Shown here in pieces: positions 5,689 through 20,869 of a DNA stretch of 64,000 nucleotides. The notes beneath the pieces are model-generated. The model saw only the letters and a program-made list of their open reading frames with translations. It did no database searches and was not told the DNA's origin. Numbering within the stretch: the first letter of the stretch is position 1; every line of letters begins with the position of its first letter. The stretch lies in assembly GCF_019219825.1 (NCBI RefSeq), contig NZ_JAHUXH010000007.1, positions 1 to 64,000 on the forward strand. Reading direction: 5' to 3'. Made by a program: the position numbers and the translations under genes. The DNA comes from Streptomyces sp. TRM70350. GTDB lineage: Bacteria; Actinomycetota; Actinomycetes; Streptomycetales; Streptomycetaceae.

Positions 5689-6089
5689 CGCCCTGCCTCC
5701 GTCCCGTCAGCACCGGTGTTCGCGTCTTTCGGCTGTGCGGGTTTCCCGCCGGGGGGCCGTACTGAGGCGCGGCACAGCCCGTTCCTTGTCACGGTCTACC
5801 AGCTCCCCGGCCACACTGCGGCCACACTTTCGGCCGTTTGGCGGCGCTCGTCCCGTCTCTCGGCGAACCGACGGCCGGAGCCGCCGATGAGCGTCTGGGC
5901 CGGCCCATCGCGGGAGCGGTCCTGCTGGTGAACAGCCTCTGGTTGGCTTGGCGCCGCCTCGCCAGGCTCCGGAAACCGACCCGCCCGTCGTAGCGACGCC
6001 ACGCAACCGTCACCTGGTCAGTGAATGACTGCGCCCTTGCCGAAGCCGCGCGCTGCCAGTTGCTGTTCGGCCACCAGCGCCCATGCGCA
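5689..6089. other. Region without a recognised gene
   Basis: About 400 bp between the DUF2243 gene and the DUF3995 remnant. An open frame runs through on the minus strand, but its residues (Arg, Ala, Pro and Ser rich) look like random high-GC translation. Nothing can be supported beyond a promoter for the DUF2243-CtaG pair. Confidence 0.35.
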
Positions 6090-6330
6090 CCGCGCCGCCG
6101 AAGCCCGAGTGCCACCGCGGCGCCGACCAGGCACAGGAGGCCGACTCCCCAGAGGCCTCCGGCTACGAACCAGGCCGGTCGCTCGGACACGAGACGCTCA
6201 CCGGACGAGACATCCAGCCCCACTTGCCCGCCGAGGGCCCAGAAGAAATGCAAACCAGCGAAAGCCACCGCCCAACCGGCAGCAAGGTACCCGAAGCGGA
6301 GACGAGGACGGGGCGCCCGTGGCGGACTGG
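6090..6330 (-). pseudogene. Remnant of a DUF3995 membrane protein
   Basis: A stretch reading GYLAAGWAVAFAGLHFFWALGG, then ERPAWFVAGGLWGVGLLCLVGAAVALGL, matches the first two helices of DUF3995 proteins. No good start codon precedes the first helix (the first ATG is inside it). After the second helix the residues stop looking like a membrane protein, whereas the family has about four helices. I call it a broken copy. Confidence 0.45.
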
Positions 6331-6363
6331 GTTGCCGATGTGGGGTTGCAGGGAGGTGGCCGG

Positions 6364-6879
6364 TTATTCGTCCCGCCTGGGGCTGAACTTCAAGATGACC
6401 CTCTCGTCGTCCGGCCGGTCGAAGTCGACATGGATGTCGCCGGTCTGGACTGTTCCGGTGCCGCCCACCCAGCCCCTCAGCGGCGAGGGTTGGTCGTCGG
6501 TCGCCGAGAACTCGACTCTGTCGTCTGTGATGCGGTCCACCGTGAACGTCTCGGAGATGAACTTGGGGGCGAACCGGATCGTGTCTCCATCCCTGACTTC
6601 CACCTCACAGGTGCGGTCCAGGCACGCATCCAGGTCCCGCCCGTCCCGGGCCTCCTTGCGTGTCGGGGACGGCGTGGGGGTCGGAGACGGCGTGGCCGGT
6701 GAGGAGGGGGACGCCGAGCGCTGTCCCTTGCCCGCCGTCGGCGTCACGGCACTCCCCGATGCGTCGCTGTCACCGCCACCGCAGGCCGTGACCATAAACG
6801 CGAGGACCGGCCCGAGCGCCCAGAGCGCGCGGGACCTCGCGGGAGCCGTCCGACCTCCTGCGGCCTGCGCTTTGTCCAT
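6364..6879 (-). CDS. Putative lipoprotein
   Basis: 171 residues. A hydrophobic signal (ALWALGPVLAFMVTACGGG) ends in a lipobox with Cys near residue 33. A Ser/Thr/Pro-rich linker (SPTPTPSPT) follows, then a small beta-rich domain with a CLDRTC Cys pair. It should be anchored outside the membrane. No family was recognised. The start at 6879 has a purine-rich AGGGGGAAG upstream. It lies 120 bp beyond the end of the biosynthetic operon and may or may not belong to it. Confidence 0.7.
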   Translation of the reverse strand: MDKAQAAGGRTAPARSRALWALGPVLAFMVTACGGGDSDASGSAVTPTAGKGQRSASPSSPATPSPTPTPSPTRKEARDGRDLDACLDRTCEVEVRDGDTIRFAPKFISETFTVDRITDDRVEFSATDDQPSPLRGWVGGTGTVQTGDIHVDFDRPDDERVILKFSPRRDE

Positions 6880-6999
6880 GCGTGTCTTCCCCCTCGGTAG
6901 GTTCAACCGATTCCGGTCCGGCAGCGATGCGGCCAACGGCTCGCTGATGAGGGCATCCTGGTGCAGGACGCCCGGGACCGGTCCCGGGCAACCACCCGG

Positions 7000-8322
7000 T
7001 CACGTCGGGGCGAGGAACGGTCCGGAGGTGCGGCACGCGGGGTTGGCGCCCATGCCGACGACGGCGCTGTCTCCGTACGGCAAGGCGCGGATGTGCGAAC
7101 CCGCGTATCCACCGGGGGTGAGGAAGACGTCCCAGGCGGCCATCCAGTCCTCGACGCGGCCCGTGCGAGGACTGACGACGGGTTCCCGGCGCGGCACCAC
7201 CCGCTCCTGGGCGACGAAGCCGTGGCCGGCGCACGAGTCGAGGACGCGGGCCCAGTCCCGGTCGCCGAGTTCCCAGCCGGCGTGGATGCCGGTTCCGGCG
7301 AAGTCCCCACGCGGCTTGACGATCAGCTGCTCCCGGTGCTCGCGGCAGTGCTCGACGAGGGCGGGGGTGAGCTCACGGGTCCACGGCAGCACCCGGTCCA
7401 CCAGGTCCCGCTCCGCCATCGTGAAGGCGTCCCGGCTCCGTTCGTCCGACAGCAGCGCCAGGCAGCCCTTGTTGGCGTACAGGGAGCTCTGGAAGGTGGT
7501 GAACAGCACCACCCTGCCCTCCTCGTGCGCACGCAGGATCGGCTCGACGGCCTCCTCGGCACCGGGGGTACGGGCGATCTGGGCCGGGGAGAAGTAGCGC
7601 AGCACCACGTCGAGGGGGGCGCCGTCGAGGTGCAGTCGGCCGTCCTTCTCACCGACCTGGCCCACCTCGCCGATGCGCAGGTCGATCCCGAGGCCGCGCA
7701 TCATCTCCTGGAAGGAGCGCACCAGATGGAGGTACGGGGCCAGGCCGCCGTCCCCTTCGACCAGGGCCACGACGGGGTCCGCCCCACCGGTCAGCGGGGC
7801 CGCGGCGGCACGCAGGGCGTCGGCGATGCGTTCCCCGGTGTGCACATAGCTCAGCCGGTGTTCCTCGGCGAAGGCGCGGAAGGCCGGAACGCCGAGCAGC
7901 GCCCGCTGGATCTCGGCCCGGTCGGCGCCGCCCAGTTCGCTGCCCACGTTGAACTCCAGCAGCTTGAAGGACGTGCCGTCGTGGTAGATGTCGGCGCGGC
8001 CGTAGGGGACGGGTTCCGCGTCCGCGAAGCGGCGCATCAGGGCGGCCTGCCGGGGCGGTATCCCGAGGGCGTCGCAGTACGCGCCGAGGTCGCCGTCGAA
8101 GAGTCGCGTGGGGAGTTGGGTGAGCAGGTCGAAGACCGACCGGATGTCGTCGGCGAAGGCGCGCATCCGGGTCTCGTCGATGAAGAACGGACGCGGTAGC
8201 AGCCGGTGGCCGCAGGACTCGTGGAACAGCGGCGGGAACTGGGCGTCGGCCATGGCGTGCAGCAGGTCCGTGTTCCCGTTCAGGCACTGCTCGTTGTAGG
8301 CCGTGGTCACCTGGTCCGTCAT
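7000..8322 (-). CDS. ATP-grasp-type protein (glutathionylspermidine-synthase-like)
   Basis: 440 residues. Motifs resemble circularly permuted ATP-grasp enzymes: KLLEFNVGSELGG near residue 120, LIVKPRGDFAGTGIHAG near 335 (nucleotide-binding Lys and glycine loop) and GFVAQERVVPRREP. Such enzymes activate a carboxylate as an acyl-phosphate and join it to an amine. It is the last gene of the long operon and the third ATP-grasp protein in it, so it is a candidate to add a further amide bond or a self-resistance group. It is separated from the MFS gene by a tandem repeat array; AGAGGA precedes the ATG. Confidence 0.65.
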   Translation of the reverse strand: MTDQVTTAYNEQCLNGNTDLLHAMADAQFPPLFHESCGHRLLPRPFFIDETRMRAFADDIRSVFDLLTQLPTRLFDGDLGAYCDALGIPPRQAALMRRFADAEPVPYGRADIYHDGTSFKLLEFNVGSELGGADRAEIQRALLGVPAFRAFAEEHRLSYVHTGERIADALRAAAAPLTGGADPVVALVEGDGGLAPYLHLVRSFQEMMRGLGIDLRIGEVGQVGEKDGRLHLDGAPLDVVLRYFSPAQIARTPGAEEAVEPILRAHEEGRVVLFTTFQSSLYANKGCLALLSDERSRDAFTMAERDLVDRVLPWTRELTPALVEHCREHREQLIVKPRGDFAGTGIHAGWELGDRDWARVLDSCAGHGFVAQERVVPRREPVVSPRTGRVEDWMAAWDVFLTPGGYAGSHIRALPYGDSAVVGMGANPACRTSGPFLAPT

Positions 8323-8333
8323 GGGTTGGTCCT

Positions 8334-8588
8334 CTGTTGTCGGGGTTCGCCGCGTCTTCTGTTCTCGGGGTACGCCGCGTCTTCTGTTCCCGGGGTACGC
8401 CGCGTCTTCTGTTCCCGGGCGTTCGCCGGGCTACTGTTCCCGGGCGTTCACCGCGCCTTCTGTACCCGGGCGCTCGCCGGGCTACTGTTCCCGGGCGTTC
8501 ACCGCGTCATCTGTTCCCGGGCATTCACCGCGCCTTCTGTTCCCGGGCATTCACCGCGTCATCTGTTCCCGGGCATTCACCGCGTCTT
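8334..8588 (-). repeat. Tandem array of about ten 25/26-bp repeats
   Basis: The gap between the MFS gene and the third ATP-grasp gene is filled by ten head-to-tail units of 25 or 26 bp. On the plus strand each begins CTGTTCCCGGG and ends CCGCGTCTT or a close variant. Most units carry the palindrome CCCGGG. Units 1-3 (8334-8408) are one subtype (GGGGTACGCC); later units alternate CGTTCACCGCG, CATTCACCGCG and CGTTCGCCGGG. No unique spacers, so it is not CRISPR. It lies inside the operon transcript. Confidence 0.9.
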
Positions 8589-8594
8589 CGCGGG

Positions 8595-9878
8595 CTATTG
8601 GGAGGGCAGTTCGCGCATGGTCCGCAGGGGTGAGAAGAACACCGGCAGCCACGCGACCGACAGGGTCACGGCGCCTGTCCACAGGGCGGCGCGTACGGAG
8701 GCGTACTCGCCGATGACCGCGGCGAGTCCGGCTCCGATCGCCAGCGCTCCGGTGAACAGGAAGCGCATGGTGGCGTTCATCCGGCCCAGCAGCGCGTCGG
8801 GGGTGACGCGCTGGCGGAAGCTGACCATCAGCACGTTGTCGACGCCCATGCGGAACGTGACCAGCAGCCAGCATCCGGCGGCCACCCACAGCCACACCCC
8901 GCGGTCCAGGACGAACGGCACGGCGAGGGCGAACGGGGCAGTGGACAGGCCGAAGATCCACGGAACGCGGCCCGCGCCCAGCCACTCCCCCGTCCGACGG
9001 GCCGCGAACGCCCCCAGGAAGACACCGACTCCGCCGACGGACAGGAACACGCCGATCGTCCACACCGGCAGGTGCAGTTCGTCGCGGAACAGCACCGGGA
9101 TCATGGTCGTGATGGTGAAGACGGACAGGTTGGTGACGGCCCCGGCCAGCGCCACCGGCCGCAGCACGGCATGGCCGAACACGAACCGGACGCCTTCGGC
9201 GACCTCCGCCGCGAGGCTCTTGCGCCGGTCCCTGGGCGGCTTCTCCTGTGGTGCGCGGATGCGGGTCAGGCAGAGCGCGGACCACAGGAAGCCCAGCGCG
9301 TTGGCGAGCACGGCGACCGGGGCGGTGAGCGCCGCGACCAGGAAGCCGCCGCCGCCCCGGCCGCCGACCTGGAGTGCCGCGTCCCAGCCGTTCAGCTGGG
9401 CGTTCGCCTGAATCAGCCGGTCCCGGCCGACGAGCTGGGGCAGGCAGCTCTGGGCGGCCACGTCGAAGAGCACGGTGGCGCAGCCGGACAGCAGGACCAC
9501 GGCGTAGAGCTGCTCGATGGTGAGGACGTCCAGCCAGGCGGCGACCGGTACGAAGGCGAGCAGCGCGGTCCGCGCCAGGTCGGTGACGATCATGACGTGG
9601 CGGTAGCGCATCCGGTCCACCCAGGCTCCGGCCGGCAGCCCGATGAGGAGGAAGGCGGCGGTGGACAGCATGCCGAGCAGGCCGACCTGCCCGGGGGAGG
9701 CGTCCAGGGCCTCGATGGCCACCAGCGGCAGCGCGATGTAGCCGATGTGCGTGCCGACCTTGCTGACCACGGCGCCCGCGAACAGCATCCGGAAGTCGTG
9801 GTCGCGCAGGAGGGAACCGGTCTCGGCGGCGCCGCGCGGCGCGGTGCCCTTGCCGTCGGTCGTCCGCGGCTCGGCCAT
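8595..9878 (-). CDS. MFS transporter (probable exporter)
   Basis: A 427-residue, roughly twelve-helix major facilitator protein with the loop-2/3 motif region (GLPAGAWVDRMRYR, near residue 80) and a second pseudo-repeat in the C-terminal half (GAFAARRTGEW). It resembles the enterobactin-exporter-like MFS proteins common in actinobacterial biosynthetic clusters. The start overlaps the stop of the ATP-grasp gene upstream (TGATG). Its position inside a biosynthetic operon argues for export of the product and self-protection; the substrate cannot be read from sequence. Confidence 0.85.
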   Translation of the reverse strand: MAEPRTTDGKGTAPRGAAETGSLLRDHDFRMLFAGAVVSKVGTHIGYIALPLVAIEALDASPGQVGLLGMLSTAAFLLIGLPAGAWVDRMRYRHVMIVTDLARTALLAFVPVAAWLDVLTIEQLYAVVLLSGCATVLFDVAAQSCLPQLVGRDRLIQANAQLNGWDAALQVGGRGGGGFLVAALTAPVAVLANALGFLWSALCLTRIRAPQEKPPRDRRKSLAAEVAEGVRFVFGHAVLRPVALAGAVTNLSVFTITTMIPVLFRDELHLPVWTIGVFLSVGGVGVFLGAFAARRTGEWLGAGRVPWIFGLSTAPFALAVPFVLDRGVWLWVAAGCWLLVTFRMGVDNVLMVSFRQRVTPDALLGRMNATMRFLFTGALAIGAGLAAVIGEYASVRAALWTGAVTLSVAWLPVFFSPLRTMRELPSQ

Positions 9879-11170
9879 CAGGCGCCGTCCCCGGTGCGCG
9901 GGGCGGGCATCGTGCGGAAGCGGAGGATCTCGTCGACCTCGGCGCAGCGGCGTGCCGCGTCCGCCGTGTCCTTGCCGGTGGCGATGACGTATCCCATCGC
10001 CCGGTCCCATCCGGCCCGGATCGCGGGCACCGTGTCGCCGACGTTCATCTGCAGCATGACGCCCGTGTCGGCGCCCGAGAGTTCCACCAGCCCCGGGACG
10101 CCGGGCAGTTTGGCACCGACCGGCGCCTGCCGCACCACCACTCCGGACTCCGTCAGCCGCTCGATCCCGTCGAATCCGGTGATCACGCCCGGTTCGGGGG
10201 CGAAGAAGCGGATGTGTCCGGCGCCGACCGGCTCGGGCGCCCGCTCGGGCAGCTTCTCGATGCCCAGCGGGACGGACAGGAACAGCCGGGAGAAGTCCAG
10301 TCCGTAGGCGCGGCGCAGGATGGAGGGGGTGCCGCCGCCGCCCATGCGGCTGTGCGACTCCAGCATTCTCGGGCCGTCCGCCGTGAGGATGAACTCGGTG
10401 TGGGTGGGGCCTTCCCACAGGCCGACCTCGGTGAGCAGGGCAACGGTCTGGCGGTGGAGTTCGTCCGTCCACTCGGAGCCGTACGCGCCGGGTATGGAGT
10501 GCTCCATCTCGACGAGGTGCTCGTCGAGCACCGACGTCATCAGGGCCACGGGAAGGTGGCGGCCCTCGGCGGAGAACGCCTCGACGCTGATCACCGGGCC
10601 GTCGAGGTACTCCTCGGCCAGCGCCCTGCGGTACCCGGCGGCGGCGAGCTGCTCCCACGCGTCCGCCGCGGCTGCCTCGTCGTCGAGGATGTGCACGTCG
10701 GCGCTGGCGGTGCCGTCGACGGGCTTGACGACGATCCGGCCGCCGACGGCGCGCAGGAACGAGGTGAGGGACCGGGCGCTGTCGACGACCTGGTACCGGA
10801 CCGGGCTGACCCCGGCGCGGGCCAGTGCCTCCCGGGTGAGCACCTTGTCGTACAGGGCGCGTACCGCGGAGACGCTGTTGCCCGGCAGGCCGAGTTGCTC
10901 CACGACGACGGCGGTCGGGACGGCTCCGGCCTCGCTGGTGGTCAGCACCCGCTCGAAGGGGCGTTCCTCGTGCAGCGGGCGGATCGCCTCCAGCAGCGAT
11001 CCGGCGTCGGACAGCTCCGCGTGCACGATGCGCTCGCAGTAGTCGTGGAGCATCTCCTCGTACATGCCGGGCGCGTGGACGAGTACGACGTCCAGGTCGA
11101 GGTCGAGGGCGGACATCACCGAGTGCGAGTGGCCGCCGACGACGGCCACCCGGCGCCTGGTGCTGGTCAT
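9878..11170 (-). CDS. ATP-grasp carboxylate-amine ligase
   Basis: 430 residues with a Rossmann-like N-terminus (VAVVGGHSHSVMSALDLDLDVV), a central ATP-grasp domain (GRIVVKPVDGTASADVHIL near residue 145; the Lys contacts ATP) and the Mg-binding end segment (THTEFILTADGPRMLESHSRMGGGG near 255-275). This is the layout of biotin-carboxylase-like ligases that make dipeptides and amides without an NRPS. It overlaps the preceding ligase gene (ATGA) and the following MFS gene. I infer it couples a cluster-made acid to an amine. Confidence 0.85.
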   Translation of the reverse strand: MTSTRRRVAVVGGHSHSVMSALDLDLDVVLVHAPGMYEEMLHDYCERIVHAELSDAGSLLEAIRPLHEERPFERVLTTSEAGAVPTAVVVEQLGLPGNSVSAVRALYDKVLTREALARAGVSPVRYQVVDSARSLTSFLRAVGGRIVVKPVDGTASADVHILDDEAAAADAWEQLAAAGYRRALAEEYLDGPVISVEAFSAEGRHLPVALMTSVLDEHLVEMEHSIPGAYGSEWTDELHRQTVALLTEVGLWEGPTHTEFILTADGPRMLESHSRMGGGGTPSILRRAYGLDFSRLFLSVPLGIEKLPERAPEPVGAGHIRFFAPEPGVITGFDGIERLTESGVVVRQAPVGAKLPGVPGLVELSGADTGVMLQMNVGDTVPAIRAGWDRAMGYVIATGKDTADAARRCAEVDEILRFRTMPAPRTGDGA

Positions 11171-12426
11171 TCGGTCTCCAGTCGCAGGGTGGCGGTCATG
11201 TGCCGGAACGTGGCGTCGAGTTCGTCCTCGCTGTCCACGGTGAAGATGAGGTGCCCGTGGCCCTGGAACGTCCGCGGTGGTACGAGCAGCTGCTCGCCGG
11301 GGCTCCGGTAGATCTGCACCTCGTCCACCCGAGGGTCGGCGCGCACCTCGTCCAGGCCGGTGACCGTGGTGAGGGTGCCCGCCCGGTCGGGGAAGATGTT
11401 CCAGAAGCCGACGGGAGTAGGCCGCTCGGCCGGTTCGACACGGGGCGCGCGCCCGCGGGCGATGTCCAGCACCGCCTCGACCATGTCGACGCCGGTGGAG
11501 AGCAGCACGGACCGGTAGATGGGGCCGCCGCCCATCCGGGCCGCGGCCTCCAGCACCACGGGTTCGGTGTCACCACGCAGCCGGAACTCGACATGCGTGG
11601 CACCGGTGGTGATGCCCAGCGCCCGGTGCACGGCGACGGTGGCCTCCTCGACCGCCCGCACCGTCTTCTCCGGCAGCCGGGTGGGGGTGCAGGCGTACAC
11701 CTCCTCGAAGGTGGGGCCGGTGGGCAGCGGCTTGTCGTGGATGGCCAGGGTGTGCGTGACGCTGTCGTGGACCAGCGACTCGACGCAGATCTCCGCGCCG
11801 GGCACGAACTCCTCCAGCAGCAGCCCGCCGTCGTACTCCTGGTGCGCGGAGCGGTGCAGCGGATCGTAGGTGAAGCCGTCCCAGGCTCCCTTGAGGAAGC
11901 CGTCGAAGTGTTCGGCGAGCTCGTCCTCGTTGTCCACACTGCGCACGAACATGCTGCCGGTGCCGAGGACCGGCTTCATCACCAGCGGAAAGCCGGTGTG
12001 CCGGGCCACCTCGCGGGCCTCGTCGAGGGACCGGGCGATGCCGTGGCGCGGCTGCGGCACGCCGCCGGCGGCGAACGCCTCGCGCATCGCCCACTTGTCG
12101 CGGGCCAGCCGGGCGGTGCGCTCGCTCACCGAGACCAGCCCGAACTCGGCCGCCACCCGTGCGGCCGAGGGCACGGGGGCCTCGGCGAAGGTGACCACCG
12201 CCGAGAACGGTTCGCTCTCCTCCGCTGCGAGGGCCTGCACCGCGGCGAGCGTCTCCTCGATGCTGCTGGTGTCCGCGATGACGACCCGGTCGACGTACTC
12301 CGCTTCCCACTCGGGGTCCTTCATCACCAGCAGCAGGCGTTCGCCGTGGTCGTGGGCGTACTGCCGGGCCCGCGCCAGATGACGGCGGCGGCTGAGGTTC
12401 TTCTTGTGGAGGACGAGGATGCTCAT
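11167..12426 (-). CDS. ATP-grasp carboxylate-amine ligase
   Basis: 419 residues with the same architecture as its neighbour: nucleotide-binding LVMKPVLGTGSMFVRS near residue 145, an EEFVPGAEICVES segment, and the metal-binding THVEFRL...VVLEAAARMGGG block near 285-305. The two proteins are clearly different, so this is not a recent duplication. An acyl-phosphate mechanism is expected. Two tandem ligases suggest two amide bonds, or alternative partners, in the product. Confidence 0.85.
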   Translation of the reverse strand: MSILVLHKKNLSRRRHLARARQYAHDHGERLLLVMKDPEWEAEYVDRVVIADTSSIEETLAAVQALAAEESEPFSAVVTFAEAPVPSAARVAAEFGLVSVSERTARLARDKWAMREAFAAGGVPQPRHGIARSLDEAREVARHTGFPLVMKPVLGTGSMFVRSVDNEDELAEHFDGFLKGAWDGFTYDPLHRSAHQEYDGGLLLEEFVPGAEICVESLVHDSVTHTLAIHDKPLPTGPTFEEVYACTPTRLPEKTVRAVEEATVAVHRALGITTGATHVEFRLRGDTEPVVLEAAARMGGGPIYRSVLLSTGVDMVEAVLDIARGRAPRVEPAERPTPVGFWNIFPDRAGTLTTVTGLDEVRADPRVDEVQIYRSPGEQLLVPPRTFQGHGHLIFTVDSEDELDATFRHMTATLRLETE

Positions 12427-12448
12427 GGTGGTGGTCTCTGCCTTCCGT

Positions 12449-13297
12449 TCAGGCGAGTTGGGACAGCCGCGTGAACTGGTCGTCGGTGAGCTCGATGTCG
12501 GCGGCCCGCATGTTCTCTTCCAGGTGGGCGATCGAGGAGGTGCCGGGGATCGGGATGACCACGGGTGAGCGGCGCAGCAGCCAGGCGAGGGCCACCTGGG
12601 CGGGCGTGGCGCCGAGTTCCCGGGCGATGCCGGCCACCGGGCTGCCGGGGCCGGCGTGCTCGCCGCGCGCGATGGGGAGCCACGGGATGAAGGCGATGTT
12701 CTCCCGGGTGCAGTGGTCGAGCACCGCTTCGTGGGAGCGGTCGGTCAGATTGAACAGGTTCTGGACGCTCACCACGTCGAAGTAGGTGCGGGCTTCCTCG
12801 ATCTGCTCGACGGTGACCTCGGACAGGCCGAGGTGGCGGACCTTGCCCTCCTGCTGGAGCTGGGCCAGGGCGCCGAACTGGTCGGCGGTCGGCACCTGCG
12901 GGTCGATCCGGTGCAGCTGGTACAGGTCGATGCGCTCCACGCGCAGCCGGCGCAGGCTCAGCTCGCACTGCTGGCGCAGGTACTCGGGGCGGCCGAGCGG
13001 CTTCCACTCCCGCGGGGACGGGCGGCTCTGGCCCGCCTTGGTGGCGATGACGACGTTCTCCGGGTAGGGGTGGAGGGCTTCGGCGAGCTGCTCCTCGTTG
13101 GTTCCGGGGCCGTAGGCGTCCGCGGTGTCGATGAAGTCGACGCCGAGTTCGACGGCGCGGCGGGCGACCTTGAGCGCTCCCTCGGGGTCCGCGGGCAGGC
13201 CCCAGTTCAGCTCGCCGGTGAGCCGCATGGCACCGAAGCCGAGACGGTGGACGGTGAGGTCGCCGCCGAGGGTGAAGGTGGCGGGCTGCTTGGTCAT
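12449..13297 (-). CDS. Aldo/keto reductase
   Basis: A 282-residue NADPH-dependent (alpha/beta)8-barrel reductase. The tetrad is visible: Asp in DFIDTADAYG, Tyr in the same motif, Lys in VIATKAG and His in YQLHRID. The NADP-binding end (VIPIPGTSSIAHLEEN) is present and the length is normal. Its ATG overlaps the stop of the quinone oxidoreductase gene (ATGA). In the pathway it could reduce a carbonyl of the sugar-like or keto-acid intermediate. Confidence 0.9.
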   Translation of the reverse strand: MTKQPATFTLGGDLTVHRLGFGAMRLTGELNWGLPADPEGALKVARRAVELGVDFIDTADAYGPGTNEEQLAEALHPYPENVVIATKAGQSRPSPREWKPLGRPEYLRQQCELSLRRLRVERIDLYQLHRIDPQVPTADQFGALAQLQQEGKVRHLGLSEVTVEQIEEARTYFDVVSVQNLFNLTDRSHEAVLDHCTRENIAFIPWLPIARGEHAGPGSPVAGIARELGATPAQVALAWLLRRSPVVIPIPGTSSIAHLEENMRAADIELTDDQFTRLSQLA

Positions 13298-14304
13298 GCT
13301 GGGTCTCCGATCGTGGTGCTGGGGGTGAGCAGAAGTTTTCCGGTCGAGGCGCGGCTCTCCAGAACCCGATGAGCCTGCCCTGCCGCCTCCAGGGGAAAAC
13401 TGCCGCCGATGTGGACGTCGAGTCGGCCGTCCGCGACGAGGCCGAAGACCTCGGCGGCGCGGCGCGCGAGTTCCTCGGTGGTGGCGATGTGGTGGTCGAG
13501 GTTGGGCCGGGTGACGAACACGGATCCCGCGGTGTTGAGCCGCTGGAGGTCGACGGGGGGCACCCGCCCCCCGGCCTGGCCGAAGAGCGCGAGGGTGCCG
13601 CGCGTCCGCAGCGACGCCAGGCTCGCGTCGAAGGTGGGAGCACCGACGCCGTCGTACACCGCGGCCACCCCTTCGCCGCCGGTCAGCTCCCGCACCGCCG
13701 CGGCGACATCGACGGCGTCCGCGCCGGTGCACAGCACCTGCCAGGCGCCGGCCGCGCGGGCGGTCTTCTCCTTCTCCGGCGCCGAGACGGTGCCGATCAC
13801 CCGTCCGCCGCGCAGCCGCACCAGCTGGGTGAGCAGCAGGCCCATGCCGCCGGCCGCCGCGTGCACCAGCACGGTGTCGCCGGGCCGCACGCGGTGGGTG
13901 TCGTGCGTGAGGTAGTGGGCCGTCATGCCCTGCAGCAGGACCGCGGCCGCGGTCCGGGAGCCGAGGCCGGCCGGGACGGGGACGGCCCGGTGCGCCGGGA
14001 CCACCGCGAGTTCGGCGTATCCGCCCGGCTGGTTGGCCCAGGCGACCCGGTCGCCGACCCGGTGCCGGACGGCGTCGCCGGGCGCCGTCGGGCCGGTGGC
14101 GATGACGACGCCCGCCGCTTCGGCGCCGGGAACGAAGGGCAGCGGGCCGGGATAGGCGCCCGACCGGCGGTAGACGTCGATGAAGTTCACCCCCGCCGCC
14201 TCGACCGCGACCAGCAGCTCTCCCGCGCCCGGCCGCGGATCCGCCACGTCCTCGGTGCGCAGCACGTCCGCGGTGCCGAACTCCCGGACCAGCACGGCCC
14301 TCAT
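13294..14304 (-). CDS. Quinone oxidoreductase-like MDR enzyme
   Basis: A 336-residue medium-chain reductase of the zeta-crystallin/QOR group without zinc ligands. It has an N-terminal GroES-like fold (AAGVNFIDVYRRSG), an NADPH Rossmann segment (VLVHAAAGGMGLLLTQL near residue 150) and a typical end (ESRASTGKLLLTP). These enzymes reduce enones or quinones. A paralogue is at 24037-24999 in the second operon. Its ATG overlaps the aminotransferase stop and its own stop overlaps the aldo/keto reductase start. Confidence 0.9.
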   Translation of the reverse strand: MRAVLVREFGTADVLRTEDVADPRPGAGELLVAVEAAGVNFIDVYRRSGAYPGPLPFVPGAEAAGVVIATGPTAPGDAVRHRVGDRVAWANQPGGYAELAVVPAHRAVPVPAGLGSRTAAAVLLQGMTAHYLTHDTHRVRPGDTVLVHAAAGGMGLLLTQLVRLRGGRVIGTVSAPEKEKTARAAGAWQVLCTGADAVDVAAAVRELTGGEGVAAVYDGVGAPTFDASLASLRTRGTLALFGQAGGRVPPVDLQRLNTAGSVFVTRPNLDHHIATTEELARRAAEVFGLVADGRLDVHIGGSFPLEAAGQAHRVLESRASTGKLLLTPSTTIGDPA

Positions 14305-15269
14305 GACAGCGGGACCTCCGTGATCCACTGCGGGTGGCGGTCGTCCTCGCCGCGCACCAGGCGTCCGTACGCCCGGGACAGCGCACGGGTCACCGGACCG
14401 GGGGTGCCGTCCCGCACGGTCAGACCGTCGATGGTGGTGACGGGAAGCACCTCCCACGCCGTGCCCATGAAGAAGATCTCGTCGGCGAGATACAGCTCGG
14501 TGCGGTCCACCTCCCGCTCCTCGACCGGGATGCCGAGGTCGCGCAGCAGGACCAGCGCGGTGTCCCGGGTGATGCCGGGCAGGACGCCGCTGGTGAGGGA
14601 GGGGGTGACGGCGACGCCGTCGCGCACCAGGGCGAGGCAGGCCCCCGCGCCCTCGCTGACCTTGTGCCGCTCGTTGAGCATGACCGGCCAGTCGTGGCCG
14701 TTCTCCCTGGCCTCCATCAACGCGAGTCGGCCGTTGTGGTAGTTGGAGAACGCCTTGGCGCGCGGCGGCGCCGAGTGCTCGCCCACCCGCAGCCAGGAGC
14801 TGACGGCGGCCCGGCAGCCGCGTTCGGTGTCCAGCGCGCTGCGGAACGGCCAGGAATCGATGATCACCTCGCAGACCGCGCCGGACGGGACCATCTGCTC
14901 CCTGATGATGCCGCGGGGGAAGGCCCACGGCCGCAGATAGGTGTCCTCCCGGTAGCCGTTGAGGGTGAGGAGGTCCACCACGGCCCGGTGCAGTTCGTCG
15001 GCCGGATGCGGCAGCGACAGGCGGCACAGCCGGGCCGAGTCGGCGAGCCGGCGCAGATGGTCGTCGAGCCGGAAGACCAGCAGCCGCTCGCCGTCGGCGG
15101 CGAGGTAGGCCTTGACGCCCTCGAAGACGGCGGCGACCGAGGCGTGGCCGACGGCGTTGACATGGACGGCGGCCTGCTCCCAGGGCACGAGGTCGCCGGA
15201 GCGCCAGAGCCATTCCGGGTGCCCGGCCTGCGGGCTGGCCAGGGTCTCCAGTGCGGATGCGGTGGTCAT
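14301..15269 (-). CDS. Class IV (branched-chain-type) aminotransferase
   Basis: 322 residues of the PLP fold-type IV family. The Schiff-base Lys is in AKAFSNYHNG (about K172). The phosphate-binding and C-terminal motifs are present (SLTSGVLPGITRDT, ELYLADEIFFMGTAWEVLPV). The reaction is transfer of an amino group from glutamate to a 2-keto acid. In a pathway with a PEP-condensing synthase this would turn a 2-keto acid into an amino acid for the ATP-grasp ligases. A housekeeping leucine/valine role is less likely given the context. Confidence 0.9.
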   Translation of the reverse strand: MTTASALETLASPQAGHPEWLWRSGDLVPWEQAAVHVNAVGHASVAAVFEGVKAYLAADGERLLVFRLDDHLRRLADSARLCRLSLPHPADELHRAVVDLLTLNGYREDTYLRPWAFPRGIIREQMVPSGAVCEVIIDSWPFRSALDTERGCRAAVSSWLRVGEHSAPPRAKAFSNYHNGRLALMEARENGHDWPVMLNERHKVSEGAGACLALVRDGVAVTPSLTSGVLPGITRDTALVLLRDLGIPVEEREVDRTELYLADEIFFMGTAWEVLPVTTIDGLTVRDGTPGPVTRALSRAYGRLVRGEDDRHPQWITEVPLS

Positions 15270-15949
15270 ACGACGGGTGTCCCTTCGGTGCGGAAGCCGT
15301 CCGCCGCCAGGTCGTAGTGGGTCAGGGAGGGCAGTACGGCGTCGGCGTGACCGAGTTCGGCCGCGTCGCCGACCGCGTTGGGCACCGCGAGGCAGCGGAC
15401 GCCGGCGGCGCGGGCGGCCCGTACCCCGATCGCCGAGTCCTCGAAGGCGACGGCGTGTGCGGGGGCGCAGTCGAGGACGCGGAGCGCCAGTTCGTACAGG
15501 TCGGGATGGGGCTTGTGGCGTGCCGCCAGGTCGCCGGTCACCAGGGCGGCGAAACGGTCACGTACGCCGAGGCGCTGCAGGTGGTGCGCCACCCAGGCGT
15601 GCGGCGCGCTGGAGACCACCGCGGCCTGCACTCCCCGCGCCCGTGCCGCGTCGAGCAGTTCGCGCACGCCGGGGCGCAGCGGCTGGCTGTCGCACAGCTG
15701 CCGCTTGCGCTCCTTGCGGTCGGCCACCAGGGTCGCGGCCCGCGTGCCGCCGACGCGGGCCGCGAGGTCATCGGCGGCGAGCCGTTCGCCGTCGGCGCGG
15801 CCCACCATGGAGTGCCACAGGCTCTCGGGGAACCGCAGGCCGCACGCGGCGTAGATCTCCCGCCATGCGCGGTGGCCCGCGCTCTCCGTGTCGCAGATCA
15901 GGCCGTCGAAGTCCAGCAGCACGGCGCGGGGCCGCACGGCGGCGGTCAC
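15266..15949 (-). CDS. HAD-superfamily phosphatase
   Basis: 227 residues, beta-phosphoglucomutase-like subgroup. Motif I is DFDGLICDTE near residue 12 (nucleophile Asp and acid/base Asp), motif II is VVSSAP, motif III Lys is in HKPHPDLYE and motif IV is FEDSAIGVRAA. A GTG start overlaps the stop of the oxidase gene upstream (GTGA). In this operon it most simply dephosphorylates a sugar-phosphate or keto-acid phosphate intermediate, as in KDO and nonulosonate routes. Confidence 0.9.
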   Translation of the reverse strand: MTAAVRPRAVLLDFDGLICDTESAGHRAWREIYAACGLRFPESLWHSMVGRADGERLAADDLAARVGGTRAATLVADRKERKRQLCDSQPLRPGVRELLDAARARGVQAAVVSSAPHAWVAHHLQRLGVRDRFAALVTGDLAARHKPHPDLYELALRVLDCAPAHAVAFEDSAIGVRAARAAGVRCLAVPNAVGDAAELGHADAVLPSLTHYDLAADGFRTEGTPVV

Positions 15950-17277
15950 CGCGCCACACCGGTCAGGGCCGGGGCCGTCACCGGGCCGAGTACCTTCTGC
16001 ACGTACTCGTTCGAGAAGACCCCGAGCGGGTCCAGTTCCGCCCGTACGCGCTGGAAGTCCTGCCAGCGCGGGTAGCGGGGCGCGAGCAGCTCGGCCGTGG
16101 CGGTGTGCGCCTTGCCCCAGTGCGGACGGGCCTCGTGTTCGCGCAGGACGCACTCCGCGGCGCGCAGGATCTCGATCTGGTCGGCGGTGCGGGGCACGGT
16201 GAGATTGACGTAGCCGGTCGCCCGCCCGTACGCGGGAGAGAGCGGGACGTCGTCGCCCGCGCCGACCCGTACCAGGACCGAGTACGGGGAGTAGGTGCCC
16301 AGCCGGCGCAGCACGGGCCGCAGGCCGCGCAGGGCGTCGGCCGTGCGCTCCAGGGGCAGCGCGTGTTCCATGGCCAGGAACCGCACCGGCTGCGGGAAGG
16401 TGAACACCCGGTGGCTCGCGTCCGTGTACGTGCTGTCGGGCCACAGGCCGCCCAGCCGCCGGGTGAGCCAGGGCACCGCCGCGGCACCGGCCGCCTTGGC
16501 GACCTGGCCGGTGAGACCGCACCGCACCTCGTCGAGGGTGGCGGCGTAACGGCGCAGCGGAGCGCGCGGCGTGGCGGCCTGCGTGGTGCGGTCGACCGAG
16601 CGGAGCGTGACACGGTCGGTCCACGGCAGCCAGTTGAGGCTCGGATGCTCGCTCTGTGCCGCCCAGTCGGTGAAGCGTTCCAGCAGCGCGTCCAGCGGCT
16701 CGTCGCTCAGCCGCAGCCGGAGGTTGAACTGCGGGACGCAGCGCAGGGTGACGGTGCTCAGGACGCCGAGGGTGCCCAGCGCGGTCCGTACCGCGCCCCA
16801 CAGGTCCGGGTCGCCGTCCGGGCCGATGTCGCGGACCGCGCCGTCGGCGGTGACCAGGCGGACCCGGGCCACCTGCCCGGACAGCGGCGGGTGGGCCAGC
16901 CCGGTGCCGTGGTTGCCGGTGGACAGGGCGCCCGCCACGGTCTGCTCGCCGAGGGTGCCGATGTTCTCCAGGGCGAGGCCCGCGCGGTCCAGCTCCTCGC
17001 ACAGCGCCGCGATGCGGGTGCCCGCGCGGACCGTGACGTGACCGGCGGCGCGGTCCACGGCGATGACACCGGAGTACGAGGTGAGGTCGAGCAGCACACC
17101 GGGAGTCGTCGCCAGGCGGTTGAACGAGTGGCCGGTCCCCACCGCCCGCACCGTCAGTCCGCTGCCGGCGGCCGCCCGCACCGCCTGCACGATCTCATCC
17201 TCACTCGTGGGGCGGACCAGCTGCGCGGGAGCGCAGCCGACCGTGCCGGACCAGGTACGCCAAGTGGATCGCAGCAC
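15946..17277 (-). CDS. FAD-linked oxidase (aldonolactone oxidase type)
   Basis: 443 residues in the VAO family. An N-terminal FAD-binding domain carries GTGHSFNRL, whose His (about residue 50) is the usual covalent flavin attachment, and GTLGEQTVAGALSTGNHGTG. The C-terminal ALO-type domain ends with RPHWGKAHT. Relatives oxidise sugar alcohols or aldonolactones with O2. A GTG start at 17277 is favoured by GAAGGG just upstream. It probably oxidises a hydroxyl on the polyol-like intermediate. Confidence 0.85.
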   Translation of the reverse strand: MLRSTWRTWSGTVGCAPAQLVRPTSEDEIVQAVRAAAGSGLTVRAVGTGHSFNRLATTPGVLLDLTSYSGVIAVDRAAGHVTVRAGTRIAALCEELDRAGLALENIGTLGEQTVAGALSTGNHGTGLAHPPLSGQVARVRLVTADGAVRDIGPDGDPDLWGAVRTALGTLGVLSTVTLRCVPQFNLRLRLSDEPLDALLERFTDWAAQSEHPSLNWLPWTDRVTLRSVDRTTQAATPRAPLRRYAATLDEVRCGLTGQVAKAAGAAAVPWLTRRLGGLWPDSTYTDASHRVFTFPQPVRFLAMEHALPLERTADALRGLRPVLRRLGTYSPYSVLVRVGAGDDVPLSPAYGRATGYVNLTVPRTADQIEILRAAECVLREHEARPHWGKAHTATAELLAPRYPRWQDFQRVRAELDPLGVFSNEYVQKVLGPVTAPALTGVAR

Positions 17278-17312
17278 TGTTTTCCCTTCGTTGTTGACGG
17301 TCCGTCGGCTGG

Positions 17313-18191
17313 TCAGTGCCGCGCGCAGAACCGCTGGAGCGCGTCCCGCCAGTGCGGCAGCGACAGCCCCAGGCCCGCCAGCCGCTCGGTGCACAGCGAG
17401 GAGTCGCGCGGCCTGCCGCCGACGAAGCCGCACTCCGCCATGGCGAGCGGCTTCGGCTCGGGCACGTCGGGGCGCAGCTCGTGCAGGGCCAGTCCGACGT
17501 CGTACCAACTGGCCGTGCCGGCGTTGGCGACGTGGAGGGTGCCGCTGACCGGCTCGGGGCGGGTCAGCAGGAACACCAGCGCCCGGGCCAGGTCGGCGGT
17601 GTACGTCGGCAGGCTGTACTGGTCCGCGACCAGGGCGGCCGGGCGCCCCTCGGCGGCCTGCCGCAGCGCCGCCAGCACCACGTCCACCCGTTCGTCCGCC
17701 CCGCCGAAGAGCCAGGACGTGCGCACGGACAGCGCCCGCTCGCCCAGTACGGCGCAGATACGCTCACCGGCCAGCTTGGTCGCCCCGTACACGCTCAGCG
17801 GACTGGGCAGGTCGGTCTCCCGGTAGCCGCCCTCCGGAGGCGCCGTCCCGTCGAAGACGTAGTCGCTGGAGAGGTACACCAGCCGGCTGCCGGTGCGGCG
17901 GCACGCCTCGGCCACGTTGCGCACGCCCGCGACATTGACGCGCAGCGCCCGCGCGGGGTCGCGTTCGCAGTCGTCGACGACGGCGTGTGCGGCGGTGTGG
18001 ACCACGACGTCGGGGCGGAAGGACTCGATGGACCGGGTGACCGCCCCGGCGTCCGCGATGTCGAAGTCGGCGCGCGAGACGCCGTGCGTCCGCCAGGTGC
18101 CGGTCACCGGGTCGGCGGCCAGGGCGGCGGTGAGGGCGGTGCCCAGCATGCCGTCCGCACCGGTCAGGTACAGCCGGGTGGCGGCGCCCAT
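17313..18191 (-). CDS. RmlD-like NAD(P)-dependent sugar reductase
   Basis: 292 residues of the extended SDR family resembling dTDP-4-dehydrorhamnose reductase: LTGADGMLGTAL (nucleotide loop), DVVVHTAA, LVYLSSDYVFDG and catalytic YGATKLAGE. No other deoxysugar genes (RmlA/B/C type) occur nearby, so a dTDP-rhamnose role is unlikely and the substrate is probably pathway-specific. Its start overlaps the stop of the RraA-like gene (TGATG). Confidence 0.85.
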   Translation of the reverse strand: MGAATRLYLTGADGMLGTALTAALAADPVTGTWRTHGVSRADFDIADAGAVTRSIESFRPDVVVHTAAHAVVDDCERDPARALRVNVAGVRNVAEACRRTGSRLVYLSSDYVFDGTAPPEGGYRETDLPSPLSVYGATKLAGERICAVLGERALSVRTSWLFGGADERVDVVLAALRQAAEGRPAALVADQYSLPTYTADLARALVFLLTRPEPVSGTLHVANAGTASWYDVGLALHELRPDVPEPKPLAMAECGFVGGRPRDSSLCTERLAGLGLSLPHWRDALQRFCARH

Positions 18192-18889: not shown

Positions 18890-20869
18890 TCAGTGGGGTG
18901 CGGCGGCGGTGCGGAGTGCCTCGGCCAGTGCGGGGGCGTCCAGGCCGTGTGCCGCGAGCGCCTCCGCCTCGGTGCCGCAGCGCGGCACCTCGGTGAGGCC
19001 GATGCCGCGGAAGCGGGGAGCCGCGTCGAGTCCCAGCTCCACCAGGGCACGGGCGAGGGTGTCGGCCTGCCCGCCCTGCGTGTAGTGGTTCTCGACCACC
19101 GTCAGCGTCTCGGCCCCGGCCGCGAGGTCCGCGAGCCATTCGGGATCGACGCGGTTGAGCCAGGGCAACTCGACGACGGTCACCTCGATGCCGTCGGCCG
19201 CCAGCAGGTCCGCCGCCCGCAGCAGTCCCGCGAGGACGACGGGGCCGGATCCCACGGCTACCGTGGGGCCGCCCGCCCGCACCACACGGCCGCGGCCGAC
19301 CCGGAGCCGTGCCGCCGGGAGTGCGTCCACCTCGCTGGGTACGGGCGCGCTGACGAGCCGCAGGTAGACGCTCTCCTCGGCGGTGGCGCAGAACTCCACG
19401 GCGGCGCGCACCCCGGACGCGTTGGCCGGTTCCAGCACCAGCAGGCCCGGTACGGCGCCGAGCGCGCTGACGTCGCGTACCGCCTGGTGGGAGTGGCCCG
19501 GTGCGGCCGGGAGCAGGCCGGCGAGGGAGCCGGTGTAGATCGCCCTGCGTCCCTCGGTGGCGTTGTTGTAGATCTGCTCGTTGGGCCGGGAGTGCAGGAA
19601 GCAGGAGAAGGAGTGGACGAACGGCAGCCGCCCGCCGGCGGCGAGGCCGCCCGCCGCGGACACCATGTCCTGTTCCGCGATGCCGCATTCGAAGAACCGG
19701 TCGGGGAACTCCTCGGAGAACGGGATGAGTCCGGTGTCGAGCACCAGGTCCGCGTCGAGTGCCACGATCCGCTCGTCCCGGCGGGCCAGTTCCACCAGCG
19801 CGTGGCCGTACACCTGAGGCAGACGCTCGGCGGCCACGGCGGCGGCCGGGACCGGGTCGGGCACCGCCTGCGCCACCCGCAGCGGCTCCAGACCGTGCCG
19901 GGACAGTATCTCCGCGGCGGTGGCGGCGAGTTCGGCGTACGCCGAGCGGTAGTCGTCCGCGGACGGGGCACCGCTGTGGTAGCGGTACATCCACTCGCCG
20001 TCCCGCAGGGAGGTGGTGGCCGCGAACGTGTCGCAGCCGGCGCCCTTGACCGTGTCGGCGATGATGACGGCCGGCTGGTCGGGGAAGCTCTCGGCGCGCT
20101 TGCGGAAGGCGGCCTCCAGCTCCAGGGGGTCGTGGCCGTCGCAGCGCAGCGCACCCCAGCCGAAGGCGCGGAACTTCGCCTCCAGGTCGCCGAGGTCGCT
20201 GACATCGGCCACCCAGGTGTCGGACTGGATCTTGTTGTGGTCCACGACGACGGTCAGTTCCCGCATCCGGTGCCGGACCGCCCCCGCGAGCGCCTCCCAG
20301 TTCTGGCCCTCCTGGAGTTCGCCGTCACCGGTCATGACGTAGACGCGGCGCGCCCGCCCGGCCAGCCGGTCGGCGAGGACGAGTCCCTTGGCCTTGGAGA
20401 TGCCCATGCCCAGCGAGCCGGTGTTGAACGGCATGTGCGGGGTGTGCACATCGGGGTGTCCGGGCAGCCCGTCGATGCGGCGCAGCCCGTGCAGGAGGTC
20501 CTCGGGCAGCGCTCCGAGACCGATCAGCGCCGCGTACAGGCCCGGAGCGTCATGGCCCTTGGAGGAGAAGTAGACGTCGCCGTCGGTCTCGAAGGGCCGC
20601 CGCATCTCGTGCAGGTACAGATGGGTGACGATGTCCGCGGCGCTGAAGCTGGAGCCCAGGTGTCCCGATCCGGCTCGCTTGATCATGTAGAGGGTGTTGA
20701 CGCGGCTGAGGGTGCTCACGGCCCGTGAGCGGTCGTACGGATCGGGGATCTGCTCCCGTACGCGGGCGAACTCGGCCGCCGGCACCCAGTGCAGGGTGGT
20801 GGTCATGGTTGACTCCGTGGTCGTGGTTGACTCCGTGGTCGTGGTTGACTCCGTGGTCGTGGTGGTCAC
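18890..20869 (-). CDS. Transketolase-like thiamine-diphosphate enzyme with a repeat-coded N-terminus
   Basis: About 659 residues if it starts at the GTG at 20869, or 638 from the ATG at 20806. The thiamine-diphosphate domain has SGHLGSSFS and the GDGELQEGQNWEA motif. The pyrimidine domain has catalytic Glu in FECGIAEQDMVSAAGG and the C-terminal domain is present, so both halves often split in secondary metabolism are fused here. The GTG overlaps the SDR stop (GTGA), like most junctions of this operon, and adds a TTTTES-repeat leader. The ATG has the better Shine-Dalgarno (GGAG, 6 nt). It would transfer a two-carbon ketol unit. Confidence 0.85.
   Translation of the reverse strand: MTTTTTESTTTTESTTTTESTMTTTLHWVPAAEFARVREQIPDPYDRSRAVSTLSRVNTLYMIKRAGSGHLGSSFSAADIVTHLYLHEMRRPFETDGDVYFSSKGHDAPGLYAALIGLGALPEDLLHGLRRIDGLPGHPDVHTPHMPFNTGSLGMGISKAKGLVLADRLAGRARRVYVMTGDGELQEGQNWEALAGAVRHRMRELTVVVDHNKIQSDTWVADVSDLGDLEAKFRAFGWGALRCDGHDPLELEAAFRKRAESFPDQPAVIIADTVKGAGCDTFAATTSLRDGEWMYRYHSGAPSADDYRSAYAELAATAAEILSRHGLEPLRVAQAVPDPVPAAAVAAERLPQVYGHALVELARRDERIVALDADLVLDTGLIPFSEEFPDRFFECGIAEQDMVSAAGGLAAGGRLPFVHSFSCFLHSRPNEQIYNNATEGRRAIYTGSLAGLLPAAPGHSHQAVRDVSALGAVPGLLVLEPANASGVRAAVEFCATAEESVYLRLVSAPVPSEVDALPAARLRVGRGRVVRAGGPTVAVGSGPVVLAGLLRAADLLAADGIEVTVVELPWLNRVDPEWLADLAAGAETLTVVENHYTQGGQADTLARALVELGLDAAPRFRGIGLTEVPRCGTEAEALAAHGLDAPALAEALRTAAAPH
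20807..20862 (-). repeat. Three 18-bp tandem repeats at the transketolase start
   Basis: Three nearly identical 18-bp units (plus strand GGTTGACTCCGTGGTCGT) lie between the SDR stop and the transketolase ATG. On the coding strand each unit carries GGAG followed six bases later by ACG; in the last unit this becomes ATG. Read in frame with the transketolase they encode TTTTES repeats, so they are either a repeated leader or a low-complexity N-terminal tail. Confidence 0.85.

Follow-up and report, generated by a model that had tools for sequence, protein, structure and literature searches.

In a conserved biosynthetic operon of Streptomyces sp. TRM70350, a tandem array takes up almost the whole spacer in front of the final gene; this array is probably a lineage-specific and largely neutral minisatellite in a permissive position. 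This is the most economical reading, since the relationships among the units fit it, the content of the spacer is not conserved and the genome has many other non-coding arrays. The array would be transcribed as an untranslated spacer of a read-through mRNA, and its only fixed task would be to carry the Shine-Dalgarno (SD) sequence of the ligase gene at its end. The window is the whole stretch of 64,000 nucleotides that was analysed, and the features discussed are listed in Table 1. A literature search (titles and abstract openings) gave, among the matches listed, no paper treating the array or the operon.

Table 1 Features of the array, its spacer and the neighbouring genes (window coordinates)
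Feature	Position	Strand	Basis
Last gene (ligase), 440 aa, glutathione-synthetase-type ATP-grasp fold	7000..8322	minus	Predicted structure
Spacer from MFS stop codon (8597-8595) to ligase start codon (8322), 272 bp	8323..8594	minus	Sequence
Tandem array with nine complete 25/26-bp units, flanked on both sides by an incomplete one	8329..8589	minus	TRF, unit parsing
Likely SD of last gene, AGAGGA, in last partial unit, 7 nt before ATG	8330..8335	minus	Sequence; anti-SD duplex
Nine full units, first bases 8571, 8545, 8519, 8493, 8468, 8442, 8417, 8392, 8367	8343..8571	minus	Unit parsing
Four short GTG-led frames in a chain, the first three ending in a GTGA overlap with the next	8484..8580	minus	Sequence
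MFS transporter gene, upstream of array	8595..9878	minus	Pfam MFS_3 and MFS_1; gene call
Two ATP-grasp / L-amino-acid-ligase-like genes (LAL1, LAL2)	9878..12426	minus	Profile searches, sequence

Structure and origin of the array

TRF called the array over its full extent with a period of 25, 10.2 copies and a score of 319, and alternatively at 8334-8584 with a period of 51, 4.9 copies and a score of 320. These two calls have the top scores in the window. Along the mRNA (minus) strand the unit starts from 8571 to 8342 are spaced by 26, 26, 26, 25, 26, 25, 25, 25 and 25 bp. The upstream partial unit lies within 8594-8572 and the downstream one runs from 8342 to about 8329. The sequence-only reading had described ten units of 25/26 bp filling the gap between the MFS and ligase genes, most of them with a CCCGGG palindrome; TRF and unit parsing recovered these units, and CCCGGG occurs eight times, at the unit junctions. 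Self-identity of the array (best over ten lags, 256-bp stretch) is 0.60, compared to a window mean of 0.37 (sd 0.037). The array is real. The longest exact repeat inside it is 35 bp, a length at which short-read assembly could resolve the array, which should be within the reach of ordinary reads. On the mRNA strand the array is A-rich and poor in T (5.9 %). T is as low in 24 of 3984 overlapping 256-bp segments, 7 of which overlap the array itself, and skewed composition was also seen in several other surveyed arrays.

The difference between units rises with the distance between them (Mantel r 0.45, p 0.011, 20,000 shuffles); the lag-1 and lag-2 means taken alone were not significant (p 0.069 and 0.059). 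Units 7 and 8, which start at 8417 and 8392, have the same sequence. A single base separates units 4 and 6, and the unit that lies between these two is different, a pattern suggestive of a repeated dimer. Units 1 and 3 show one difference. The alternation of subtypes proposed earlier is seen in these two pairs, but not in the last three units, which form a run of one subtype (0-2 differences). It is a fair inference from the distance trend, the identical units 7 and 8 and the near-identical units 4 and 6 that slippage or unequal exchange produced the array, as had also been proposed from the letters of the stretch. Growth of the array from the SD region is suggested, though not demonstrated, by the resemblance of the last unit to this region. 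A sequence of ~25 bp beside the ribosome-binding site of the ligase would first have been duplicated in the spacer, and the duplicate would then have been amplified via slipped-strand replication or unequal exchange, in single units and partly in dimers.

The operon and its last gene

Nine genes are arranged in one order on the minus strand at 7000-17508, an order that is conserved in the genomes G218 and G088 and partly in Pilimelia terevasa and Streptomyces oryzae. They encode an FAD-type oxidase (the authors' reading), a HAD phosphatase, a class IV aminotransferase, a quinone oxidoreductase, an aldo-keto reductase, two L-amino-acid-ligase-like proteins, an MFS transporter and a glutathione-synthetase-like ligase. 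Upstream joints in the operon overlap, LAL1-LAL2 by ATGA and LAL2-MFS by TGATG, in contrast to the long spacer holding the array. Searches of Pfam and NCBIfam at the thresholds applied gave nothing for the last gene. Its structure model (mean pLDDT 92.8) was built on 20 sequences from the window and the loci. In the PDB this model matches glutathione synthetases from human, plant and yeast, together with the glutathionylspermidine synthetase of E. coli (best match E 4.6e-19, TM 0.63, 13 % identity). The ATP-grasp label that had been given to this gene is supported by the match to a glutathione-synthetase-type fold.

The same spacer in related bacteria

Shared gene order was found for all nine proteins tested in G218 and G088, for seven proteins in the available DNA of Pilimelia terevasa and for four in the contig of S. 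oryzae. In none of these four relatives does the corresponding spacer contain the array. Absence from close relatives with the same operon, combined with unchanged expression of the last gene, had been named beforehand as evidence against a role of the array, and the first of these two is what was observed. The spacer measures 433 bp in G218, the nearest relative by protein identity (MFS 85 %, ligase 86 %), 211 bp in G088, 137 bp in S. oryzae and 77 bp in Pilimelia terevasa, compared to 272 bp in the window. A spacer before the last gene is present in all five genomes, while its content is unconserved. As the gap is at least 77 bp in five of five genomes, the spacer as such may matter.

The G218 spacer contains a 316-bp multi-copy MITE-like element with inverted ends (L091:1619-1934). 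It starts at the MFS stop codon TAG, the last base of which is the first base of the element. The G218 loci examined yielded fourteen distinct elements of 163-452 bp, selected by their 20-bp inverted ends, in which no more than 2 mismatches were allowed; 9 of the 14 have TA flanks on both sides. Some forms have a core of 33-bp tandem repeats (L071, L075 and L080). The spacer of S. oryzae (L033:4042-4178), which is the same in G517, bears a dispersed repeat. This repeat matches its own genome at least 43 times, counting the copy in the spacer, and the genome of the window has at least 41 matches of shorter length. The same search for dispersed repeats, with at most 40 candidates scored per genome, gave none for the spacers of G088 and Pilimelia. 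Apart from its match to itself, the G088 spacer gave nothing stronger than weak matches (E 1e-5 to 1e-3) when compared with the other four genomes.

A MITE-like element with internal 33-bp tandem repeats in the very spacer that holds the array in the window could mean that the array is the remnant or cargo of a mobile element. The G218 element resembles BrickBuilt, a MITE with a minisatellite in Porphyromonas gingivalis described in PMC4596501 as intergenic tandem repeats inside inverted-repeat ends. In contrast to BrickBuilt, the array of the window has no inverted ends and no second place in its genome. Neither the terminal inverted repeats nor the several copies of a MITE were found for it, and a search of 8300-8620 gave no inverted repeat of at least 12 bp. 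Descent from a mobile element is extremely improbable.

Each species is represented by a single genome in the collections searched. Among the 392 genus genomes the ligase was found in 70 at E<=1e-40, own included, and at an identity of at least 76 % only in G218 and G088 besides its own genome. Six of the 394 family genomes, own included, gave a match at E<=1e-150, and a ligase search of the genome contigs gave 2 loci. In L126 and L127, with ligases of 56-58 % identity, no TRF array was found, and the MFS protein of the window had no match within the locus.

Tandem arrays elsewhere in the genome and the genus

Tandem arrays outside coding sequence occur frequently in this genome. A survey of 400 kb (340 kb of contig C121, window included, and 60 kb of C62) revealed 19 arrays with a TRF score of at least 100. 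Fourteen of these, including the array studied here, are non-coding, a split that is approximate because the gene caller was simple, composition-based and crude. Five of the non-coding arrays score at least 200 and three at least 300; one of the 14 scores higher than the present array, which comes second. Five of the 14 sit between co-directional genes. The 200 kb surveyed in each of G218 and G088, one stretch per genome picked for the operon, contained 22 arrays, of which 9 are non-coding; three of these nine are the 33-bp repeat of the G218 element. Elsewhere in the window an 18-bp tandem repeat (3.6 copies) lies at 20799-20863 between two minus-strand genes, and a 45-bp repeat (2.8 copies), the period of which is a multiple of three and which is possibly coding, lies at 35353-35478.

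A sequence search and a core-pattern scan placed the array at a single place in its own genome, the second match being due to the ligase part of the query. The regular spacing of 25-26 bp and the core conserved across units would suit a set of binding sites for a DNA-binding regulator. However, the 20-bp core (at most 3 mismatches) was found at only 1 place in the genome outside the array, compared to 3 for the pattern read backwards, and the array is missing from relatives that carry the operon. An operator array was rejected on the ground that the core is not dispersed in the genome, and a regulator-binding function is highly improbable.

With the array as query, weak matches were obtained in 14 of the 391 other genus genomes (392 with its own), at 15 places; two candidates were scored per genome, which limits the sensitivity of this search. 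Five of the 15 places lie on tandem arrays of similar motif with a score of at least 100. The array read backwards matched in 5 of the 391 other genomes, with one of its five places on such an array (Fisher p 0.06, forward compared to backwards query). At this p value against the backwards control, a dispersed family in the genus is not claimed. Arrays of somewhat similar motif, with best periods of 15-48 bp, were seen in other genus genomes at L036, L038, L039, L041 and L043, the last consisting of GCCCGGAACGGGACGCGGTGAACA units. L050 is cut by a contig end and its interval is inexact.

RNA folding

It had been speculated from the sequence alone that the array forms serial RNA hairpins which stabilise or attenuate the message. 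CCCGGG at eight unit junctions appears to favour this, and some fold is predicted for every single unit followed by CGGG (between -3.7 and -8.0 kcal/mol, units 4 and 6 being the most stable), while joined pairs containing unit 4 or 6 reach -15.7 to -18.3 kcal/mol. The RNA from 8310 to 8610 (301 nt) nevertheless has a folding energy of -102.4 kcal/mol, where its shuffles average -103.1 (z 0.14) and 53 of the 100 equal or exceed it in stability. When the columns of the nine joined full units were permuted, with the same permutation in every unit, 62 % of 300 permuted arrays folded as well or better (78 % on the opposite strand). Pieces of 60 nt have a weaker mean minimum free energy within the array (-18.2 kcal/mol, n=20) than in the flanking genes (-21.8, n=252). 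Furthermore, CCCGGG is self-complementary without a loop and does not form a hairpin by itself. Small local folds are present, none of them beyond what composition leads one to expect; the fold stability above this expectation that would mark a hairpin array or attenuator was not found for the array. The folding results do not support the proposal of serial hairpins, which is very unlikely to hold. An Rfam search over 6000-17000 gave no match at the gathering threshold, no terminator-like site was found within the array, and a sigma-70-type scan, which may not suit this organism, gave no promoter in it.

Relation to known repeat systems

MIRUs are interspersed, with copies at several places in the genome, and have a small reading frame that overlaps the adjacent genes at their stop and start codons. 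The array studied here is not interspersed, and its short GTG frames overlap each other, neither the MFS stop codon nor the ligase start codon. The array does fall under the basic definition of a bacterial satellite as worded in PMC6749651, at least 4 repeats of 10-200 nt, with its 10.2 copies of 25 bp. For Streptomyces coelicolor this source gives 38 satellites under its own, different definition; the satellites in PMC6749651 passed a regularity filter, whereas the present array is classed by the basic definition alone.

The closest parallel is the MIRU-VNTR spacer array between rnc and fpg1 of M. tuberculosis, as described in PMC2734929. In both cases direct repeats take up most of a co-directional spacer and run as far as the start codon; of the species compared, only one lineage has them, which for rnc-fpg1 is the tuberculosis complex (PMC2734929). 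The rnc-fpg1 repeats are 37, 26, 18 and 16 bp long, unlike the 25/26-bp units here, and the spacers of relatives are 1-54 bp long, compared to 77-433 bp here (PMC2734929). Six patterns were found among 32 isolates, and longer arrays were accompanied by modestly higher fpg1 mRNA; length variation and the link with expression were measured for rnc-fpg1 (PMC2734929), whereas the array here is known from the sequence of one genome.

Possible effects on the ligase

The ligase SD has a predicted anti-SD duplex of -5.9 kcal/mol, the other operon genes ranging from -7.0 to -10.7. Four units (within 8443-8571, minus strand) exceed the ligase SD in predicted strength, with values, calculated without a control, of -13.6 (unit 8545), -13.8 (8468), -8.6 (8571) and -8.8 kcal/mol (8519). 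It is conceivable that these SD-like units have a role in ribosome loading. The GTGA chaining of the short frames follows from the 26-bp units, 26 being one short of a multiple of three. The chain stops at a TAG in unit 4, about 160 nt short of the ligase, and a relay of minicistrons to this gene was rejected on this ground.

An array that needs no hairpins and whose length alters the amount of ligase through ribosome loading, polarity or decay of the mRNA is unlikely, though several observations are in line with it. The rnc-fpg1 array runs up to the start codon and goes with more fpg1 mRNA when longer (PMC2734929). The array of the window is less structured than the flanking genes and carries the ligase SD, and four of its units have stronger predicted anti-SD duplexes than this SD. 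Against it stands the absence of the array from four of four examined relatives with the operon. A more specific version, in which the array would be a fast-changing tuner with a unit derived from the ribosome-binding region of the ligase, with units that hold ribosomes and a unit number that sets product level or mix, is quite unlikely. Any effect on the ligase level would more likely act via spacer length or ribosome loading than via hairpins, and array length or the SD-like units might have a modest effect on ligase expression.

Several observations were counted against a largely neutral minisatellite: the T-poor, A-rich strand, the strong anti-SD units, the gap of at least 77 bp in all five genomes, the match on an array of similar motif in 5 of the 14 weak-match genus genomes, and the M. 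tuberculosis operon-spacer array that goes with the expression of the next gene (PMC2734929). A largely neutral, lineage-specific minisatellite is nevertheless the probable explanation.

Biological meaning

In five genomes one operon spacer contains an array, a MITE-like element, a dispersed repeat or none of these, which indicates that a different sequence is tolerated in each lineage. A striking intergenic tandem array is common in this genome and need not be regulatory. If it were true that the length of the array sets the dose of the ligase, nature would have supplied a simple means of adjusting a biosynthetic pathway.
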